Source: a bacterium
GTDB taxonomy: Bacteria; Armatimonadota; UBA5829
DNA length: 51,714 bases
Reading direction: 5' to 3'
NCBI GenBank assembly: GCA_021373255.1
Contig: JAJFTD010000168.1
Location: 1 to 51,714 of the forward strand
In this document: positions 29,336 through 39,953 of the stretch, one piece after another
How positions within the stretch are numbered: position 1 is the stretch's first letter
How the letters are laid out: every line of letters begins with the position of its first letter
Made by a program: the position numbers and the translations under genes
The notes under the pieces: generated by a model
What the model saw: only the letters and a program-made list of their open reading frames with translations
What the model was told of the DNA's origin: nothing
Databases searched by the model: none

Positions 29336-32300
29336 CTATTCGAAGTTATAAACAGCCGTGCCGTCTACTGTTCCTACGCGCACATTGTCGAGATAACCAG
29401 TAACATTATCCCAATGCGGTGTGCAACCACCCATGAAGAACCTGAGTCCTCCGTTGGAAACAGAGGCGATCTTTGCATCAGGATAAACGGCAAGGTAATC
29501 AGCTATCGAGATAAACGGACCCGCATCGCTTGATCCGGCATATCCACTACCAGAATACCATCTGCCAACATTCAGCGCGTCAAATGCCACCCATTTGTTC
29601 AATGCGCAGCGACTATAGCCACAGGCACCAGTAAGACGATCATTCCATGGATCACATGTAATAATGTCCTCCACAGTGTCGAGAACGCCGTCCAGGTCGA
29701 GGCTGATTCTAGCACCAATACCTCTGGCTTCAGGATTCGCAATATCAAAGTAAGTCATGTAATTGCTTACCGATAGTTCGCTAAGGTCTACAAGTTTAAC
29801 GCCAGCATAAAGATTGGTCCTAAAGTTGATGACACTAGTGCTGCCATCGGCGGCATTTGTCATCAATACGGCCCCAGTGCCATAAGTGGAATCGGGAGCG
29901 GTTGCGAACGCAACTGTTCCAGTTCCTGAAGCAGTTTGACGTATCCAACTTGTATCGGCGGATGTAACATTCACTGTGTTCGTTACTGTATTGGCTACAT
30001 CCAGTGAATATTTGGGTCTGATCACGTTGATCTTTATTGTGCCGTCTGTAGCACGTCCCATAACGCCAGTCACTGCGACTGACTGGCCCACCGCTATTGC
30101 GCCGACTCTCTGCACATTAGAGGTGGAATTGTCCACGCGAATACCGACATTGACAGTGCCATCGCTGATGCCGCTGCCGTCGTCAATATAGAGATAGCTC
30201 TTATCATTGGCTACCGTAGTCACGTTGCCCCATATCTTTACGAGCAAGCTCTGAGCAAGAGACTCAGTGGCAGATTTATTAGCCATACCAAGGGCACCTA
30301 AAGGTTCGCCCGAGGTTACAGTCATATTGGATGCATCAATATAGCGCTCACCATTGCTATCGGTATTAATTGTTCCGGCAAGACCTGTTATGCGACTGCC
30401 TTCGCTTGCCGCAAAGCCGTGAAGAACCTTGATGCCATAAGCGCGATCCACATTCTCAACATAATAGCTTCCATCGCTGAATACAGTGGACGCTACTGTT
30501 GCAACAAGAGGTTCGGCTATTCTGACCAGTGTTCCATCCGTCATTCCCTTCGCATCTATGACGGTGTTAACATCAGTAGGTGCTGCGCATGAAGCATTGA
30601 AATTGTCCCAATAGACTTTGTTGCTTGGGTCTGAATAGAGTCCGATATACCCACCGGTCGTCTTCGTGCTATCAGTAATATCGAAGATTAAAGTATCGTT
30701 CATCCAGAGCTTATGTGAAGCGCCATGTACGCTCAGCTTGAATGTAACTTTACCACTCTCCGGGAAATCCGGCAGCAGATAATCAAGATCATAATCGCTT
30801 CCAACCTGAGGCCCGTTGCACCACAGCCTCACATGTCCGATATTCGACAACCATGGGAACCACTGGACAATATAACCATCGCCGCCATCTCTTATTGCAT
30901 CCTGCCTGTAAGCGATACCAACCCAGTCGGAGATTATAAAGTCGTCCATAGTCATATCCACTGACAAATCAAAGTCTGTGGGCCTGAAGCCACGTCCCAG
31001 ACACACACCATTGTTGACACTACCTGTCTCATCCAAGTACATCTGGTTGTTGAAGATGCTTGCATATCCGTTGCCGTTTTTGATCCAAGGCAACGCGTTG
31101 GAGTCTTCGGTGGTGCCCAGATTAGTGTTATCAACCCTGTAGAATGTATCATGGACGCTCCAAGACCGCTCAGTGGGCATCATGGCAAAATCTTTGCCGG
31201 TCAACGAAGCCCCACCGTCTGGAAGCGGGTCTATTGCCATTGCAGCGTAGCCATCTGCCGCAGCGTCTATAGTGAAAACACCCGGCACAGCAAACAGCGT
31301 ATATGCGCCATTCGTATTGGCGGTTGTAGTGGCTGAAGTCTCCTTTATGCTCACATCATCCACAAGTACGCTGCCAACACCTGCATATCGAATGGTCAAC
31401 TCTGATAATATGGCAGTAGCTGGAACAACAAATTCACCCGAATACTGAGCCCAGGCAGATGTGGGTGTGCAAGAGAAGCTCCACGTGGTGCATGCATTCG
31501 AGCTATCATATGAATCTACGGTCAATCCCGTCTGGGATGGGACCGCATCAGCGGAGCGCAGCCAGACACTCATTCGATAAGTGTGCCCGGCAATCAAACT
31601 ACCGAGGTTTTTATATTCCTGTCGAAGACCCACATCGTGAGCGGTTGAGGTGCGTGTAATCTGAACAGCTGCATCAGACCCGTTGTGTCCAGGGCTGACG
31701 ACAGCTGCGCTACCGCTGGAACCGTAGGTATAAAACGCCCACGAATCAAAGTAATTGTAACCTTCGTTGCTATAGGTCTTGCCGACTGTGCAGTCTTCAA
31801 AGCCAGGACTCGATATCAGGTTGCCATTGCAGAGAAGACTTTGCATTGAGATTGAAGCACCGGGTAACGGCTGTCCCGACAGCGAGTCTATCACCGAGCC
31901 GGAGATGCTGTTTGGAGTTATGTCTACAATACAGACATCATCAAATTCGGCGCTCCCAGCACTAACGACATGGAGTTGAGGAGATATCTCTATGGCATTA
32001 GCAGGAGCAGTAATCTCCATCGCATACTGAGTCCATTCCGAAGTCGGAATAGCGTTCAGGGTGTCCTGCGTACCAAGATAACCGGCATCGCTGAACCACG
32101 GAACAACCATACTGACTGTCTGCGTTGTCGACTCATCTGTCCGAGTCCAGAACGAGCATCGATATCTATGTCCTGCCGTCGCCGGAAGACGTCCATCAAC
32201 AAAATCCCTATCTATCCATGCATAACCACCGGTCGAGGTTCTTGTAAACTTCAAGGCCTTTCCGCTTCCATCATGCCCGGGAGTAACAGCACTCAGGCTC

Positions 32301-33559
32301 GCAACGGATCCCTCCGCGTTGATGAACCTCCACTCGTCCACAGTGTAAACACCCTCGGTCGACCATGTTGTTCCGGTTTGGAAATTCTCGAACCCCGGAT
32401 TCGGGATTACATTACTGCTCAAGGCAGACATTGCCTCAAGCGAAACATCGTCGACGTCTATGTTTCCAACATAATTACTGTCATCTTGGTTAAGTATGAA
32501 CTGAATTTGCGCATACGCGCAGTTAGCCGGTGCAGTATACACATAGGAATACTGAGTCCATTCAGGGGAAGTGTTGACTACCCGAACAAGAGTACTTTCG
32601 ATGTACAAGCTGCTGCTGTCAAACGATGCAACTTTACTCAATACCGGCGTGCCGGCACTTGATTTTGCCCAAAACATAAAACGATATGATTGGCCTGCCG
32701 TTACGCTAATATCGGGCTTATTGTTTAGTGCAACCCATCCGGTCGTCGTGCCCCTGGAGAAGTTCACGGCCTGGCCGGACCCGTCACGTCCGGGAGTAAT
32801 CAAGCTCAAACTGCCGTTAGCGCCAGTCCCATTTTGGAATATCCAGTAGTCGCTGACGGAAGTTGTTTCTTCGGCTGTCACGCTTGTGCCGGAAGGAATG
32901 GAGTCGAATCCTCCGTCGCTGCTCAAACTCAAATCAGTGGCCTTATCCACAAGGCAAAGGTCGGCTATATCCACGCTGCCGACAGTGTCGAGTTGAAGCT
33001 GAGGGTTCAGATTTGTCGTGTCATCAGGTGCCGTAAGCTCGACCGAATACTTGGCCCAGCTTGAAGTCAGTGTGAACGATTCTGCCCCCACATTGCCAAG
33101 GTACGCAGCACCATCGAATGCCGCAACTATTCCCGAGAGCGTTTGATCAGTTCCAGAATTTGTCTTTGCCCAAAAAGTGAAAACATACTTATGTTTCCCA
33201 ACAGCCGGAATACGCGAGTTATCCAGGTCAACAGTTACACTATTGTCTGTGCTGGTCCGGCTTAGAGTGATTGCCCTGCCGCTTCCATCGCGACCACCTG
33301 GGACAACAGTCAAACCTCCGGCAGTGCCACCCGGATTGACGAACCTCCAGTCACCGACAGCATAGGTATCAGCGGTAGTTGTTACGACAGTGCCGACAGG
33401 CATTGTCATAAACTTGGCATCTGGGATCAAGTTTCGAGTAGCCCCAAACAACGAGCCTACACAAAACAAAGTCAAGAAAAGACTTACTAAGAGCATCCCC
33501 AATATGTTCCGGCTGCTACCCAAACGGGCATTGCGCAGAACTCTGTTTACTTCTCTCAT
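29336..33559 (-). CDS. Giant secreted protein with four CBM-like repeats, LamG-like and OB-like domains
   Basis: The 1407-residue protein starts at ATG 33559, behind AAAGGAGAAC; an upstream in-frame start at 33589 is unsupported. It has a signal peptide (MLLVSLFLTLFCVGSLFGA). Four CBM_4/9-like modules follow, each opening like NLIPxPGFE and including a W and a PGxDGSGxAxxxxRTST strand (about 40-200, 205-375, 380-550, 565-745). The fourth interrupts a carboxypeptidase-regulatory-like domain whose halves are SGSVIDSLSGQPLPGASISM and NTNGAYTLFAVPGVFTIDA. Then a LamG/3-keto-glycoside hydrolase-like sandwich (DLSVDMTMDDF, YIGLYSDPSNKVYWDNF), two OB-like domains (YYVENVDRAYGIKVL, YLYIDDGSGI) and a C-terminal domain with cysteines. 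No catalytic motif was seen, so it is probably a carbohydrate-binding surface protein. Confidence 0.7.
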   Translation of the reverse strand: MREVNRVLRNARLGSSRNILGMLLVSLFLTLFCVGSLFGATRNLIPDAKFMTMPVGTVVTTTADTYAVGDWRFVNPGGTAGGLTVVPGGRDGSGRAITLSRTSTDNSVTVDLDNSRIPAVGKHKYVFTFWAKTNSGTDQTLSGIVAAFDGAAYLGNVGAESFTLTSSWAKYSVELTAPDDTTNLNPQLQLDTVGSVDIADLCLVDKATDLSLSSDGGFDSIPSGTSVTAEETTSVSDYWIFQNGTGANGSLSLITPGRDGSGQAVNFSRGTTTGWVALNNKPDISVTAGQSYRFMFWAKSSAGTPVLSKVASFDSSSLYIESTLVRVVNTSPEWTQYSYVYTAPANCAYAQIQFILNQDDSNYVGNIDVDDVSLEAMSALSSNVIPNPGFENFQTGTTWSTEGVYTVDEWRFINAEGSVASLSAVTPGHDGSGKALKFTRTSTGGYAWIDRDFVDGRLPATAGHRYRCSFWTRTDESTTQTVSMVVPWFSDAGYLGTQDTLNAIPTSEWTQYAMEITAPANAIEISPQLHVVSAGSAEFDDVCIVDITPNSISGSVIDSLSGQPLPGASISMQSLLCNGNLISSPGFEDCTVGKTYSNEGYNYFDSWAFYTYGSSGSAAVVSPGHNGSDAAVQITRTSTAHDVGLRQEYKNLGSLIAGHTYRMSVWLRSADAVPSQTGLTVDSYDSSNACTTWSFSCTPTSAWAQYSGEFVVPATAILSELTIRYAGVGSVLVDDVSIKETSATTTANTNGAYTLFAVPGVFTIDAAADGYAAMAIDPLPDGGASLTGKDFAMMPTERSWSVHDTFYRVDNTNLGTTEDSNALPWIKNGNGYASIFNNQMYLDETGSVNNGVCLGRGFRPTDFDLSVDMTMDDFIISDWVGIAYRQDAIRDGGDGYIVQWFPWLSNIGHVRLWCNGPQVGSDYDLDYLLPDFPESGKVTFKLSVHGASHKLWMNDTLIFDITDSTKTTGGYIGLYSDPSNKVYWDNFNASCAAPTDVNTVIDAKGMTDGTLVRIAEPLVATVASTVFSDGSYYVENVDRAYGIKVLHGFAASEGSRITGLAGTINTDSNGERYIDASNMTVTSGEPLGALGMANKSATESLAQSLLVKIWGNVTTVANDKSYLYIDDGSGISDGTVNVGIRVDNSTSNVQRVGAIAVGQSVAVTGVMGRATDGTIKINVIRPKYSLDVANTVTNTVNVTSADTSWIRQTASGTGTVAFATAPDSTYGTGAVLMTNAADGSTSVINFRTNLYAGVKLVDLSELSVSNYMTYFDIANPEARGIGARISLDLDGVLDTVEDIITCDPWNDRLTGACGYSRCALNKWVAFDALNVGRWYSGSGYAGSSDAGPFISIADYLAVYPDAKIASVSNGGLRFFMGGCTPHWDNVTGYLDNVRVGTVDGTAVYNFE

Positions 33560-33665
33560 TGTGTTCTCCTTTCGTTTTCCTATGGTCATGTTTTCTGCGT
33601 CAATCTGACTCTACTTTTAAATGCACCTCCTAATTAGATGATATTATGAGCCCATAATCTCAAGA

Positions 33666-34421
33666 CTAACGCGTACGGTCAAACACACCTTTTGTAATAT
33701 CGAAATTGCCGGTTTTTTCTATGTCTCCTCCGAAATACCAATTAGCGTCGTAGTTGCCGCCATTCATACCATCAGTGCGATATACGAAAATGCGACCCAC
33801 GTGGCCATCCAGAAATATCGCATTAAACTGTTTGCTGGGTCCATCATAAACAGTGACCAACTCGCAGGGATTCTTGTAGTTGCCATGCCAGGCTTCCTCA
33901 TAAAGCATGGAAACACGCGCAGGAAACGTTGCCTGAGACATACCTACCGGATGCTTATAGTAGCTTGCGTAATGCATCAGAGCATGTTTGAAGTAATAGC
34001 TTGAACAGGCCTTCTTCTGGACACTGCTATAGATATACTGAGTCCTGCATTTGAAAATATCGACGCTTTTGATATATCTCTTCAAAGGAAGAGCCATGCC
34101 TGCAAGAGTCTTGCCGTCGTTTCCTCTACATCTCTTTGCATACGCACTACGCCATGCATCCCCAATCGAGTTTGGAAGAGATACGGGCCCGTAATACTGA
34201 CTGGGACCCATAACCGAGGTTTGATCCGGAATATAGCCGTCATGGTCATTGGCATACAACATAAACGCCGTTGCGATCTGGTGCATATTGCTTTTGCATG
34301 ATGTCTCCTGCGCTTTTCTCTTTACCTTAATAAATACAGGAAACAAAATAGCCGCTAGAATAGCGATTATCGCTATCACAACGAGCAGTTCAATTAGTGT
34401 AAATCCTCGTTTTTTGAACAT
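33666..34421 (-). CDS. Type II secretion pseudopilin-like protein (DUF1559-type tail)
   Basis: The 251-residue protein begins MFKKRGFTLIELLVVIAIIAILAAILFPVF. The prepilin peptidase site lies after G6 and the E5 of the mature chain is present. The tail has the FLDGHVGRIFVYRTDG motif common in planctomycete/armatimonad prepilins. It would be cut by PilD-type peptidase and assemble in a pseudopilus or surface fibre. It precedes the two giant secreted proteins on the same strand with a 106-nt gap, perhaps cotranscribed. Many such genes occur per genome in those phyla, so a specific role in secretion of its neighbours is inference. A vanished AraC gene is divergent upstream. Confidence 0.85.
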   Translation of the reverse strand: MFKKRGFTLIELLVVIAIIAILAAILFPVFIKVKRKAQETSCKSNMHQIATAFMLYANDHDGYIPDQTSVMGPSQYYGPVSLPNSIGDAWRSAYAKRCRGNDGKTLAGMALPLKRYIKSVDIFKCRTQYIYSSVQKKACSSYYFKHALMHYASYYKHPVGMSQATFPARVSMLYEEAWHGNYKNPCELVTVYDGPSKQFNAIFLDGHVGRIFVYRTDGMNGGNYDANWYFGGDIEKTGNFDITKGVFDRTR

Positions 34422-34713
34422 TTTTCATCTCTCCTCATTCTCACGCAGATGATTGGTGATCTCAACATTCAATGCTGCAACCACAGCATTCACAAATGCG
34501 CTTCAATAGCATTGAGTCTCGTGTCAATCTCGAATTTGTACGGAACCGATAGCTGGGCAATGAAACCATTGGATAGTGCATACACTCTATGTTCTCACTG
34601 TGCCGGAAGCTATGTCGTCATAAGTTCAAGCCGTAACTTGATGTCTATATTTATTTCTTTACATCATTTCTATTTTGGCGAACTGCATTTGATTATATTC
34701 TGAGCTGCAATTG

Positions 34714-34766
34714 TATGATATAGTAGAATCGCGCATATATCTATAACTTATCGATTATATACTATG
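34714..34766 (+). promoter_or_regulatory. Conserved AraC upstream region, copy A
   Basis: The block TATGATATAGTAGAAT through TATATACTATG is shared with the region upstream of the gene at 38275 (TATGATATAGTGGAAT onward), with equal internal spacing. It could be a regulatory site recognised by AraC proteins or a conserved promoter. The retention opposite the pseudopilin gene suggests continued use as an operator by the surviving paralogue. Confidence 0.4.
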
Positions 34767-34823
34767 CAATTTCGCTCATTCAAAACAGCCTGCTATGCCT
34801 GTGCTTGTTTGAGATTCCAGTGA
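34764..34823 (+). pseudogene. Truncated AraC-family regulator start
   Basis: ATG at 34764 opens MQFRSFKTACYACACLRFQ and a TGA follows at 34821. The first codons and about 50 nt upstream match the start of the intact AraC gene at 38275 (MHIRSYEIA). TATGATATAGTRGAAT, a 34-nt spacer and TATATACTATGCA sit at the same spacing in both. The rest of the gene is not recognisable, so this is the leftover of a paralogue that was divergent from the pseudopilin gene. Confidence 0.6.
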
Positions 34824-34883
34824 AGTTGCAGGTTTGTAGCTCGGGACGTAGACGATTGAAATCTATAGGCCGCAAAATAATAA

Positions 34884-34920
34884 GGACTCAACCGGATTGG
34901 ATTATGATCCGGTTGAGTCC
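34884..34920 (-). terminator. Terminator of the ribokinase operon
   Basis: GGACTCAACCGGAT (34884-34897) pairs perfectly with 34907-34920 over a 9-nt loop, 20 nt after the ribokinase stop. On the minus strand the stem is followed by TTATTATTTTGC, a fair T-tract, so Rho-independent termination of the operon is well supported. Confidence 0.8.
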
Positions 34921-34940
34921 AAACAGATGCTGGCAGGGTA

Positions 34941-35861
34941 TTAATCGTCGCCGAGCACTGCGTCGATTTCATGTCGGTAAGGCACAGAAGGTTGTGCTCC
35001 CGGCCTCGTTGTGGAGATTGCTGCTGCCGCGTTTGCAAATCTGGCCGCCTCGGTCAGCGGCAATCCCTCCACCAATGCCACAGCCAACGCACCGTTAAAG
35101 ACGTCTCCCGCAGCAGTTGTGTCGATTGGATTCACCTTAAAACCAGGCACGACGCCCCTAAACGACTTATCGGAAATGTAAGCTCCTCTTGCTCCCAGTG
35201 TAATAATAACCGTGTCGACTCCCAGTGACCTTAGAGCTGTTGCAGCGGCGTCCGCACTGGTTTCATCTTCGACAGCTATCCCAGTAAGGCGCTGGGCCTC
35301 CGTTTCATTGGGCGTAATAATGCTTATGTTGTGCAGCAGTTTTGTGTTCAATTCGCGTGCGGGAGCAGGGTTCAGCAGCACTTTTACTCCGCAATCGTAA
35401 GCGACTTTGCACGCGATATCAACCGTATCTGGCTGTATTTCCAACTGGATAATCATTATCTCTGAAGATGAGATAAGTTCACTAGCTGCGTTGATGTCAT
35501 CAGGACTCAGTATGTCGTTTGCTCCAGGAGCAACGGCAATCAAATTTTCACCGAGCTTATCCACCATAATCAATGCAACGCCCGAAGACGCGGATGAATC
35601 ACGGATCACGTGGTCGGTATCGATCGAATTCTGTTTAAAGCTTCTGATACCTTCTGTTGCGAATGGATCGTTTCCGACCCGCGCCACAAACGCCACCTTA
35701 CCACCCGCCCTTGCGGCTGCGATAGCTTGGTTCGCTCCCTTACCACCAAGAGCGGATGCGAATTTTCCCCCGACCACGGTTTCTCCAGGTTTCGGTATAT
35801 GCTCTGCAGTGACAATCATATCCATGTTGAAGCTGCCGATAACAACAATTTTTCCACTCAT
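34941..35861 (-). CDS. rbsK: Ribokinase
   Basis: The 306-residue PfkB-family kinase shows the ribokinase features GSFNMDMIVTAEHIPKPGET, ALGGKGANQAIAAARAG, LNPAPARELN, ITPNETEAQRLTG and the active-site signature DTTAAGDVFNGAL. The DTTAAGD aspartate is the catalytic base. Such enzymes phosphorylate ribose (sometimes deoxyribose) to ribose 5-phosphate. It is the last gene of a three-gene operon with an exported ADP-ribosylglycohydrolase and a GRP-type sugar transporter, whose joint role fits ribose release, uptake and activation. Length is typical for RbsK, and a terminator follows. Confidence 0.9.
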   Translation of the reverse strand: MSGKIVVIGSFNMDMIVTAEHIPKPGETVVGGKFASALGGKGANQAIAAARAGGKVAFVARVGNDPFATEGIRSFKQNSIDTDHVIRDSSASSGVALIMVDKLGENLIAVAPGANDILSPDDINAASELISSSEIMIIQLEIQPDTVDIACKVAYDCGVKVLLNPAPARELNTKLLHNISIITPNETEAQRLTGIAVEDETSADAAATALRSLGVDTVIITLGARGAYISDKSFRGVVPGFKVNPIDTTAAGDVFNGALAVALVEGLPLTEAARFANAAAAISTTRPGAQPSVPYRHEIDAVLGDD

Positions 35862-35871
35862 AGCCTATCCT

Positions 35872-36870
35872 CTACGCTAAACGTGCGGCAATAATCAGCC
35901 CGAGTCCTATTATAAAGCTCAAAAACATCAGGGTCAGAAGTCTGTTTGTGCCTTTCGGCGCTTTCTGAAACTCCCGCCAGATGAATACTCCCCACAATGC
36001 CGCAACCATTGTCGCTCCCTGCCCCAAGCCATACGATATTGCCGGGCCTGCGGCTCCGGAAGCGATGATACTCGTGGACATCCCTGTATTCCAGATAACG
36101 CCGCCCAATATTCCTATCAAATGAAGTCCCGGGTTTCCTTTGAAATAGTCCCTGTATGAAACCGGCTTGCCTGTGAATGGTTTGGCCATTACGATGGAGT
36201 TGAATACGAAATTGCTCAACAGGAGTCCCACAGAGAAAAATACCACCGCTGTGTAGGGTGTCATCAATCCCTGTGCAGGATGCGCGAAATTCACAACCAT
36301 CGCCTTCACTACGAATCTATAAAAGAAACCCATGGCTATTCCGGAAACAATGGATATGCACACGCCTTTTGAGGTTTCTTTCCGATCCGCAGACAGTCGT
36401 TTATATGCAGCGGCGTCAAGCAAGATAGCAATCACCACTCCCAGCAGCCCGAGAAACAACAGAACAGGATTTCCTTCTGGTCTGGATATGTAGTTGGTGA
36501 TGACCCCGATTATAAGCGCAAGTCCCACCGCTATTGGAAATGCGACTGCCATTCCCGCGATGTCTATTGCCGCTACGAATAGAATGTTCGACAGGTTAAA
36601 TATGACTCCACCGAGCAATGCAAACCCTATGGCACTGGCTGATGCCTGCGTAAGGTCGGCAAGAAACGGCCGGCCGTAAATACCATAACTACCCGCAGTG
36701 AACGCCATGATCAAGGACAATAGCAAGACCCCAATTGCATAGTCCCAATAAAAGAGCTGAAATCGCCATTCTTTTCCGGCGAGTTTCTGGGTGTTGGCCC
36801 AAGACCCCCAGCAAAGCATTGTAACCAAGCATAAAGCCACTGCCAACGGATAAGATTCTATAATTACCAT
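35872..36870 (-). CDS. GRP-family sugar (ribose) transporter
   Basis: The 332-residue membrane protein has about ten transmembrane helices and begins MVIIESYPLAVALCLVTMLCWGSWANTQ. It resembles glucose/ribose porter (GRP/RbsU/RhaT-like) transporters: the CWGSWANTQKL start, the PxxFALLGGVIFNLSNILFVAAI helix and VIWNTGMSTSIIASG near the end. These carry sugar with protons. Its ATG overlaps the stop of the preceding gene by 7 nt (ATGGTAA), with AGGAGGAGAGG as ribosome site, so the two are translationally coupled. The ribokinase gene starts 10 nt after it. Ribose is the most likely substrate from context. Confidence 0.8.
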   Translation of the reverse strand: MVIIESYPLAVALCLVTMLCWGSWANTQKLAGKEWRFQLFYWDYAIGVLLLSLIMAFTAGSYGIYGRPFLADLTQASASAIGFALLGGVIFNLSNILFVAAIDIAGMAVAFPIAVGLALIIGVITNYISRPEGNPVLLFLGLLGVVIAILLDAAAYKRLSADRKETSKGVCISIVSGIAMGFFYRFVVKAMVVNFAHPAQGLMTPYTAVVFFSVGLLLSNFVFNSIVMAKPFTGKPVSYRDYFKGNPGLHLIGILGGVIWNTGMSTSIIASGAAGPAISYGLGQGATMVAALWGVFIWREFQKAPKGTNRLLTLMFLSFIIGLGLIIAARLA

Positions 36871-38165
36871 GCCTCTCCTCCTATTCGATGCATATACTCT
36901 CGCGTGGGATGTTGTCCTGTGCGAGTGCTATTTCTTTGATCCAAGACTTGCAGACCGTAACCTGCAGTTTCTTTCGCAAGCTCGCTGATTTTCAAATTCT
37001 GATTGTCTATTTTGACATCGGTATTGTAGGTGTCGTTAAACGAAGCTTTCCATTTTGTTGGAATAGCCCTCTCACCCCACATAGCGCCGAGGATGGCTCC
37101 TACAGTGCCGGCATTGCAATCACAATCGTAACCACACATTACTCCCAGACTCACAGTCTTCGTAAAATCGCCATTGCCATATAGCAGCGCCAATGCAACT
37201 GCTCCGCCATTGATGTCCGCATGAACCCACTTCATATTGCACCAGTTTGCGTACAACCCGGTTTTGTATTTCTCTTCGGCAAAAGGCGCAACCCGCGAAC
37301 CGTCTTCCAATAAACCGTACTTGGCGTCAAGTAAATCCCATGCCTTGCTCCATGTGGCGGACTGTTCGTGCCAGTTGAGCACGTCTTTCACAACGCGAGC
37401 GTATTTGCAGTCGGCAGGAATTACGTTCAGAGCTTCCCGCAGGATTCTCTTGCAATCGGTATCCACCATCGCGAGGCTGATCACAGCTGCGATGTAGCGT
37501 TCGGCGTATATCCCGTCACCCAAATGTGAAATCCTCGCATCCCGTTCAGCATAATCCGCAGCTACGTCAGGCATTCCAGGTGCAATCATCCCCCAGATGT
37601 CGCTTCTCATCTGAGCGCCTATCCAATCGCTGTATGGATTGTCCGTGGCGGCTGATGCTGCCGGCCATATGCCTTTTCGAAAGTTTGCGAGTGCAACAGC
37701 TTCGGCGGTACACGCAGCAGAACAATATTTGACCCAGGCATCTGCAATATCCCTGGATGTCAGGTTTATGCCGTTTTTTCTGAGTGCGAGTAGTGATACA
37801 ACCAAAAAATCCGAGTCGTCATTGGACGGCGCTGAGGTGAAGTTTCCCCTGAGATATCCCTTTTGTTGGCTGTCGAAGTCGGCTGAAAAAAACCAATCTA
37901 CCGGATAGGCATCAACCTTGCGGGCACATGCTTCAATTTGCTGTCTGGACCAGCCTTCCACGGGCTGGCCAGCCGTAAGGCCGATGAGCTTGCCGCACCA
38001 AGCTCCGTAGACCTTGTTCTCATACTCGTCCTTATTAGTTATGAAAATGTTTCGCTGCTGGTCATGAGTGGACTGATCACATCGAGCCGTCAGACCCAGC
38101 AAAGCCAAAACCAAAATGCCGACAAGTGCGATCCCGCCATTAAGATAGATTACCGAAGCATTCAT
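36864..38165 (-). CDS. Exported ADP-ribosylglycohydrolase-family enzyme
   Basis: The 433-residue protein has an N-terminal hydrophobic segment (GGIALVGILVLALLGLTA) followed by an ARH/DraG-type domain. Characteristic spots are YENKVYGAWCGKLIGLTAGQPVEG, the metal-binding SAPSNDDSDFLV (the usual TDDT place) and GYDCDCNAGTVGAILGAMWG (the usual DTDxxAxxxGxxxGA place). Aspartate positions for the dinuclear magnesium site appear present. With signal sequence and location before a sugar transporter and ribokinase, it is likely to free ribose from nucleoside or ADP-ribose-type compounds outside the cytoplasm. An AAAGGAAG ribosome site supports the start. Actual substrate is untested. Confidence 0.75.
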   Translation of the reverse strand: MNASVIYLNGGIALVGILVLALLGLTARCDQSTHDQQRNIFITNKDEYENKVYGAWCGKLIGLTAGQPVEGWSRQQIEACARKVDAYPVDWFFSADFDSQQKGYLRGNFTSAPSNDDSDFLVVSLLALRKNGINLTSRDIADAWVKYCSAACTAEAVALANFRKGIWPAASAATDNPYSDWIGAQMRSDIWGMIAPGMPDVAADYAERDARISHLGDGIYAERYIAAVISLAMVDTDCKRILREALNVIPADCKYARVVKDVLNWHEQSATWSKAWDLLDAKYGLLEDGSRVAPFAEEKYKTGLYANWCNMKWVHADINGGAVALALLYGNGDFTKTVSLGVMCGYDCDCNAGTVGAILGAMWGERAIPTKWKASFNDTYNTDVKIDNQNLKISELAKETAGYGLQVLDQRNSTRTGQHPTREYMHRIGGEAW

Positions 38166-38220
38166 AAAAAATACTTCCTTTCTGTTCTTTTAACAGGCGT
38201 GCAACCTTGTTTTGATTACG

Positions 38221-38277
38221 TTCATATGATATAGTGGAATTGAATCAATTTCTACTCCATATCGAGTATATACTATG
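38221..38277 (+). promoter_or_regulatory. Conserved AraC upstream region, copy B
   Basis: TATGATATAGTGGAAT, 34 nt and ATGCA before the AraC start reproduce copy A at 34714-34766 at equal spacing. The region is also the shared divergent promoter of the ribose operon. No clean -35/-10 pair was found. Confidence 0.4.
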
Positions 38278-39162
38278 CATATTCGCTCATATGAAATAGC
38301 TGACAGGCTGTATGATCCTTTATCTCTAGGTGAAGACTTCCCTGTTTTTGGCGGAGAAAAGATAAGCATTGGCAGTTCGCAGAATTTCTTGCACCGGCAC
38401 AACGTGTTTGAGGTAGGCTACTGCTATGAAGGCTGTGGTGTATTCATCGTTGATGACAGAGTGTATCCGTTTTCCTCTGGTGATGTTTCAATAATTGATA
38501 GCGGAATGTTCCACATTGCTCAAAGCAGCGCCAATCATAGTAGTATTTGGGCTTTCATATACCTGGATCCATACAGGTTTTCTGCGTCGCTTGCTCCCGG
38601 TTCTTATCTTCACAATGTTGCCGAACTGCACAACGTCACACATTTTCCATTGCTTCACCGTGCCGAACACCCGGAGATATCGTCTATAGTTTGGGAGATA
38701 CTGGACGAGATACAAAAGCATGCTCCATTCTACGAAATCTCTGTAGGCGGATTGATAGCTTCACTGTCGGTGAAACTTTTCAGAACGGGCAAGATTGTGA
38801 ATTCATCTGGCTCTAGCTCAAATAATGCTATGGAACGGATGGCGCCGGCTCTGCAGCATATAGCAATGCATTATGCCGAGCAGATACCAATGTCCATACT
38901 TAGTGAACTATGCTGTTTGAGTGATGCGCAGTTCAGGAGACTGTTTCACCTGGCGTTAGGCCAGTCGCCTCAGTCTTATCTGGTGCGGTTCAGGATGGTA
39001 ATGTCTGCATCATTGCTCAGCAGCACCACCCTGCATATCCTCGACATCGCAAACAGAGTCGGTTACTCTTCTATATCCAGCTATAACCGCCACTTCAAAA
39101 ACCAGTTTCATCTAAGTCCGCGCGAGTGGAGGAATTTGCGGCGCCTCTCAAAACATAGTTGA
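38275..39162 (+). CDS. AraC-family regulator of the ribose cassette
   Basis: The 295-residue protein has an N-terminal cupin-like sensing domain (HRHNVFEVGYCYEGCGVFIVDD, FSSGDVSIIDSGMFH) and a C-terminal AraC DNA-binding domain (about 190-290: HIAMHYAEQIPMSILSELCCLSDAQFRRLFHLALGQSPQSYL, then ILDIANRVGYSSISSYNRHFKNQFHLSPREWRNLRR). The motif order is typical of sugar-responsive AraC regulators. It is divergent from the ADP-ribosylglycohydrolase/transporter/ribokinase operon, with 109 nt between starts, and likely controls it. The upstream sequence and first codons are shared with the broken copy at 34764. Confidence 0.85.
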   Translation: MHIRSYEIADRLYDPLSLGEDFPVFGGEKISIGSSQNFLHRHNVFEVGYCYEGCGVFIVDDRVYPFSSGDVSIIDSGMFHIAQSSANHSSIWAFIYLDPYRFSASLAPGSYLHNVAELHNVTHFPLLHRAEHPEISSIVWEILDEIQKHAPFYEISVGGLIASLSVKLFRTGKIVNSSGSSSNNAMERMAPALQHIAMHYAEQIPMSILSELCCLSDAQFRRLFHLALGQSPQSYLVRFRMVMSASLLSSTTLHILDIANRVGYSSISSYNRHFKNQFHLSPREWRNLRRLSKHS

Positions 39163-39203
39163 ACACTGATAGTATTATCACAGGTCCGGAAATGGCTTTT
39201 TGA

Positions 39204-39953
39204 GTTCGGATCGATTTATTACAACGGACAGCACTGCGCAGCCAACTTGCGCTCTATCAACTCCAGCAGGAAAAGCGTGTTACTCCGAAACCTCGATGCA
39301 CACCAGCTTTCCGGCTGACCTGGATTCTACTGATGAAGACTTTCGCTAGATGGAAGAATGTCTTTTGCGTGGTAAAGCCGGAGACAGTCATACGTTGGCA
39401 TCGTGCAGGGTTCCGGTTGTACTGGCGGCACAAGTCTCTGCGCAGGAACGGCCGACCGCCAGTGTCTGCCGAGATGCGTAGGCTTATCAGAAAAATACAT
39501 GCCGATAATCCGCTCTGGAGTCTCGAGCGGATATACGATCAACTGATCGACCTTGGGTTCGATCCTCCAGCGCCAAACACGATTCGCAAGTGTCTGGCGA
39601 ATTCCACCTGGGACAGGAGTAAGCCATCTCAGACCTGGAAGACATTCATCTCAAACCACATGGATGTGACTTGGGTAATGGACTTCTTCGTTGTATCCGC
39701 GCTCACGTTCCGATCACTCTACGTCTTCGTTATCCTCAGCCATGAGCGGAGGAAGATCGTCCATTTCGGAATCACTCAACACCCGACCATGCTTTGGGTG
39801 ATACAACAGCTTCGTGAGGCAACCGGGTTTGGAGTCCAGCCCAGATATATCATCCGAGATAACGACCGAATCTACGGGTCGCCCGATGCAGTGCTGGAAC
39901 CCAAGCCAATTCTCGGCGGGTTGTACCACAACTATCAGGCGAAAGCTGCCTGA
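39204..39953 (+). pseudogene. DDE (rve) transposase, internally deleted
   Basis: The frame is open from 39204 to the TGA at 39951-39953 but has no ATG before 39333. Upstream residues TALRSQLALYQLQQEKRVTPKP continue the family's usual N-terminus. KPETVIRWHRAGFRLYWRHKS and GRPPVSAEMRRLIRKI follow, then the integrase core with WVMDFFVV (first catalytic D) and YIIRDNDRIYG (second D). It then jumps to PILGGLYHNYQAKAA, the far end of the protein. The block with the catalytic glutamate (VERxIGxIRRECLDH) is missing. It therefore cannot transpose. A matching tail survives at 25832-25880. Confidence 0.75.

Follow-up and report, generated by a model that had tools for sequence, protein, structure and literature searches.

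A Probable rus-Like Ribose-Scavenging Operon under AraC Control, with an ARH-Family Hydrolase of an Unusual Branch

The window considered here, a stretch of bacterial DNA of 51,714 nucleotides, contains adjacent genes for an ARH-family glycohydrolase, a GRP-type transporter, a ribokinase, and a divergent AraC-family regulator. Together, these genes probably constitute a rus-like operon for ribose scavenging under AraC control. The ARH, acting at or outside the membrane, would cleave off the group attached at C1' of a ribofuranosyl compound, either a nucleoside or another riboside. The freed D-ribose would enter through the GRP transporter, as genomic context supports, and the ribokinase, for which the family assignment is strong, would convert it to ribose-5-phosphate. 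Finally, three near-identical promoters suggest that the AraC protein would bind a repeated operator-like block, activating the ARH operon, a second ARH gene on contig C121, and probably a neighboring operon that encodes a pseudopilin and a carbohydrate-binding (CBM) protein.

The locus is a variant form of a widespread and known kind of ribose-scavenging locus; it is not a new system. Less expected are its alternative branch of ARH, the survival of the ARH alone in a dead duplicate of the locus, and a promoter-level connection to a carbohydrate-binding protein. ARH-family enzymes have been studied chiefly as erasers of protein ADP-ribosylation. That their genes recur next to those of a ribose transporter and a ribokinase across many phyla suggests an easily tested nutritional role.

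Organization of the Locus

A sequence-only reading had proposed a four-gene cassette; its four reading frames lie where stated, and profile searches confirm their families. The operon is encoded on the minus strand in the order ARH (36864–38165), transporter (35872–36870), and ribokinase RbsK (34941–35861). The ARH gene runs 7 bases into the transporter gene, 10 bases separate the transporter gene from rbsK, and purine-rich Shine-Dalgarno-like sites lie 5' of all three starts. The AraC-family gene (38275–39162, plus strand) starts 109 bases past the ARH start on the opposite strand, and encodes a cupin sensor along with an HTH region (AraC_binding and HTH_18 domains). Adjoining it, at 39333–39953, is a transposase-like reading frame of the IS481/IS3 type (206 residues; below family cut-offs), probably truncated.

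The hydrolase matches the Pfam ADP_ribosyl_GH profile (PF03747) at 166.5 bits, against a cut-off of 26.2. The transporter, of the GRP or ureide-permease type within the DMT superfamily, exceeds the Pfam cut-offs for Ureide_permease (PF07168; 74 bits versus 27), Sugar_transport (PF06800; 36.5 versus 26.3), and TMEM144; these profiles, together with the neighborhood survey described below, mark it as a probable ribose importer. RbsK exceeds the cut-offs of the NCBIfam ribokinase equivalog profiles (NF008353, 368.2 versus 341; TIGR02152, 367.5 versus 299.65). By families and spacing, the window thus holds a rus-like unit: a ribokinase, a GRP/DMT transporter, and a candidate gene for a ribose-releasing hydrolase.

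Comparison with Known Loci

The rus operon of Bacteroides thetaiotaomicron is induced by ribose and encodes a putative DMT-type ribose transporter, RusT (PMC12596196). Bacteroides ribose-utilization (rus) loci (BT2803–2809 in B. thetaiotaomicron) comprise genes for ribokinase, RusT, and a hydrolase that releases ribose from nucleosides (PMC10434189). The window locus shares the ribokinase, the DMT-type transporter, and a candidate ribose-freeing hydrolase, but it has a single ribokinase, a divergent AraC gene, an ARH of another branch, and neither a nucleoside hydrolase nor a SusC/SusD pair. No SusC- or SusD-like gene is present in the cassette or in the flanking genes that were scanned (29336–39953), and the locus falls outside the strict definition of a rus PUL.

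To survey relatives of the transporter, a five-sequence alignment was scanned against 84,980 species genomes, and the best 80 of at least 584 relatives were analyzed. These span the Gemmatimonadota (71–72% identity), Planctomycetota, Ignavibacteriota, Neomarinimicrobiota, KSB1, Bacteroidota, Verrucomicrobiota, Acidobacteriota, and others. Among these best 80, 71 loci include a ribokinase relative, which in 53 lies on the same strand and no more than 300 bases away; an ARH is present in 29 and a nucleoside hydrolase in 14. The exact window order, ARH-GRP-RbsK, recurs in L070 (Gemmatimonadota), L081, and L148, so the layout is of a known, rus-like kind; no paper describing it was found in the literature searched. 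Conversely, the 20 ARH loci examined from the same genome and phylum contain no match to ribokinase or transporter, and no ribokinase is annotated alongside the distant transporter relatives of Spirosoma oryzicola (40%) and Piscirickettsia (35%).

Individual loci sharpen the picture. Those of Parabacteroides (rbsK-ARH-nucleoside hydrolase-GRP) and Flammeovirga (rbsK-GRP-ARH) carry the same three gene families in one direction, with transporters 56–62% identical to that of the window; however, gene order differs, and their ARHs, 27–29% identical, belong to another clade. L070 shares the gene order and has a transporter 72% identical, but its ARH is of the clade usual in GRP loci (25% identity to the window ARH); no AraC relative was detected at this locus. 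The resemblance in concept to rus loci, first proposed from the sequence alone, is upheld by the survey counts and by the Parabacteroides example.

A further relative of the transporter, 59% identical, is the permease of the E. coli DHAP-shunt operon (mtnK-mtnA-ald2-permease), whose function is called unknown in PMC12632272. (The 4.94-Mb E. coli record, L064 or NZ_CP141089.1, is labelled a plasmid and is probably a chromosome.) Unlike the window locus, the E. coli operon serves 5-deoxyribose and methylthioribose, sugars chemically close to ribose, and contains no gene for ribokinase or ARH. By analogy, the window transporter might carry such a related furanose in place of ribose. This seems very unlikely: ribokinase phosphorylates the 5-hydroxyl, which both 5-deoxyribose and methylthioribose lack; the window kinase exceeds the ribokinase equivalog cut-offs; and no relative of methylthioribose kinase occurs in the 80 best transporter loci of the at least 584. 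Considered together, the survey counts, the annotated rus-like loci, the B. thetaiotaomicron rus operon, and the E. coli permease indicate that the transporter likely carries D-ribose and that the ARH likely serves to release it.

The ARH Enzyme and Its Branch

An AlphaFold model of the window ARH (mean pLDDT 75.5) matches ARH3, ARH1, DraG, and MJ1187 with Z scores of 28–33 over approximately 280–310 residues. Residues E70, D116, D117, D347, and D349, at the acidic metal-binding and catalytic positions of the family, are invariant in two ARH alignments, and the acidic positions line up in part with those of MJ1187 and DraG. The fold match and the invariant acidic residues suggest that the protein is probably an active glycohydrolase. 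A phmmer search of the PDB with the window ARH alone yielded no match; structural relatives were reached with the family profile instead of the single sequence. ARH3, ARH1, and DraG are intracellular ADP-ribosyl hydrolases. The window protein has their fold and acidic metal ligands, but is only about 15–20% identical to them and has DxDC in place of the usual DxDT, as do most of the bacterial relatives aligned. ADP-ribose, which the sequence-only reading had named along with nucleosides as a candidate substrate, is not specifically supported.

The N-terminal 29 residues contain a single hydrophobic helix (residues 4–29), with no lysine or arginine ahead of it and no lipobox. The paralogue encoded on contig C121, 73% identical, has a conventional signal peptide, and the GRP-locus ARHs of Parabacteroides and Flammeovirga have N-termini that read as lipoprotein-like. 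By comparison with these relatives, export of the window ARH is likely, but its atypical signal sequence makes the case weaker than the plain "exported" of the sequence-only reading.

In a 67-protein tree, the window ARH groups with its C121 paralogue, and a branch with 100/99 support separates the two from the 31 GRP-locus ARHs. Its own branch is rare; an ARH of the GRP-locus clade is common, though not obligatory, in rus-like loci. With this locus, two distant ARH branches are seen in the same genomic position. Among 241 verrucomicrobial and 294 planctomycete genomes scanned, a single ARH of the window branch came up, and a denser sample of its class added one more. The closest proteins from outside the genome are both planctomycete (51% and 47% identity) and are encoded near TRAP-transporter or DUF4434 genes, not near GRP genes. 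Given this and the separate clade, the transfer of function to the window ARH is indirect. In one of these loci (L165:3–2757), the ARH is followed by a glycosidase-like DUF4434 protein, a possible hint of a glycan substrate. The host genome encodes eight full-length PF03747 proteins and one fragment; several are 480–709-residue frames with extra regions.

A Decayed Second Copy

Contig C121 carries a decayed duplicate of the locus (L039:7372–9744), in which an intact ARH of 415 residues is surrounded by debris. Upstream are pieces of an AraC gene, 53–76% identical and interrupted by stops or frame breaks. Downstream are two collinear transporter scraps and two fragments from a relative of the window's 1417-residue CBM protein. 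Comparison of the two ARH genes gives pN 0.15, pS 0.72, and dN/dS of approximately 0.07, with dS near saturation. The C121 ARH has thus been kept under purifying selection while the AraC and transporter genes of its locus were lost. Its retention without local partners suggests that it acts in trans with the intact locus.

A Shared Promoter Element

The proposed cassette boundaries, 34941–39162, prove too narrow, because a promoter element is common to the ARH operon and to an adjacent operon. This second operon, also on the minus strand, encodes a protein with a prepilin-type N-terminal methylation motif (33666–34421) and a 1417-residue protein with CBM_4_9 carbohydrate-binding domains (29336–33589), both recognized by profile and both proposed co-members of the regulon. 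The element, approximately 65 bp long, has exactly three copies in the 4.2-Mb genome. One lies in the region between the ARH and AraC genes, ahead of the ARH operon; the others precede the C121 ARH gene and the pseudopilin/CBM operon. Relative to the ARH-operon copy, the match is 83% at C121 (E 1e-15) and 77% at 34714–34779 (E 5e-8).

All three copies consist of an operator-like block, TGAGCGAAnnTGCATAnTATATnnTCGnTA, followed on the same strand by TAGAWA-N17-TATYAT, with identical −35/−10 spacing. The ARH-operon copy (38226–38289, minus strand) has the block at 38289–38260 and TAGAAA-N17-TATCAT at 38254–38226, some 60 bases upstream of the ARH start, and its block shares sequence with the first codons of AraC. 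The second copy (34715–34778, minus strand) has the block at 34778–34749 and TAGATA-N17-TATCAT at 34743–34715, and faces the pseudopilin/CBM operon. In the simplest reading, inferred from these sequences, one AraC regulator governs both operons and the C121 ARH gene. Given the shared element, the functional unit probably extends from 29336 to 39162. An element so defined makes the regulon testable.

Might the second copy instead be a mere relic of a duplicated araC promoter, leaving the pseudopilin/CBM operon outside the regulon? The overlap between block and AraC codons lends this some weight, since on the plus strand ATGCAATTTCGCTCA is still the beginning of the pilin-side copy. The distance from this copy to the pseudopilin start, about 290 bases, also favors a relic. 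Nevertheless, this copy has kept the −35 and −10 boxes, their 17-base spacing, and 28 of the 30 operator-block positions, and remnants of a CBM-protein relative adjoin the C121 ARH as well, so the linkage is old. A relic is thus a genuine but somewhat unlikely possibility. It bears only on the extension of the regulon, and is compatible with a ribose-scavenging operon.

The promoter element also bears on whether the ARH belongs functionally with its neighbors. The transporter and ribokinase might simply take up free D-ribose while the ARH serves an unrelated role, such as stripping ADP-ribose off proteins. Among the best 80 of at least 584 transporter relatives, the commonest layout has a GRP-RbsK pair with neither ARH nor nucleoside hydrolase nearby (24 + 15 loci); moreover, the window ARH branch occurs without GRP in planctomycetes, and is the lone survivor in the C121 copy. 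Against this, the ARH gene is first in the operon and overlaps the transporter gene, and other ARHs are present in 29 of those 80 loci. Furthermore, the C121 ARH gene retains the operon's promoter element, so its product probably still acts together with the operon. An unrelated role for the ARH is therefore rather unlikely, and ribose release in the service of the transporter and ribokinase remains the preferred explanation.

The link to the CBM protein raises a more specific idea: the ARH might work outside the cell as a ribofuranosidase, removing ribose from a ribose-containing glycan to which the co-regulated 1417-residue protein holds on. This seems improbable as it stands, but if true would mean a polysaccharide-type substrate for the ARH fold, and a two-operon regulon under one AraC regulator.

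Origin of the Cassette

Among 290 other genomes of the host phylum, none encodes a close relative of the transporter. The window ribokinase falls outside the main ribokinase clade of the phylum, which holds the second ribokinase of this genome; its nearest tree rows are kinases from GRP loci, although many forks are weak and two phylum members join this group. The contig itself is not foreign, since its RuvB is 87–89% identical to those of genus mates. From this combination, the transporter and ribokinase are probably foreign to the phylum and gained by transfer. Either the transferred locus already held this branch of ARH, or the ARH was recruited here.

Mis-binning of the contig was also considered, and is unlikely given the RuvB identities and the second AraC-ARH unit on another contig. 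GC3 is lower in the cassette (0.49–0.54) than in ruvAB (0.62–0.65); the neighboring operon is similar in this respect, so composition is not taken as proof of transfer. Neither the transporter nor the ARH had relatives in the viral contigs scanned. On a Parabacteroides plasmid (L063:2087–10002), only a few kb separate the rus-like rbsK-ARH-nucleoside hydrolase-GRP locus from a gene for a site-specific integrase; rus-like loci may therefore be mobile.
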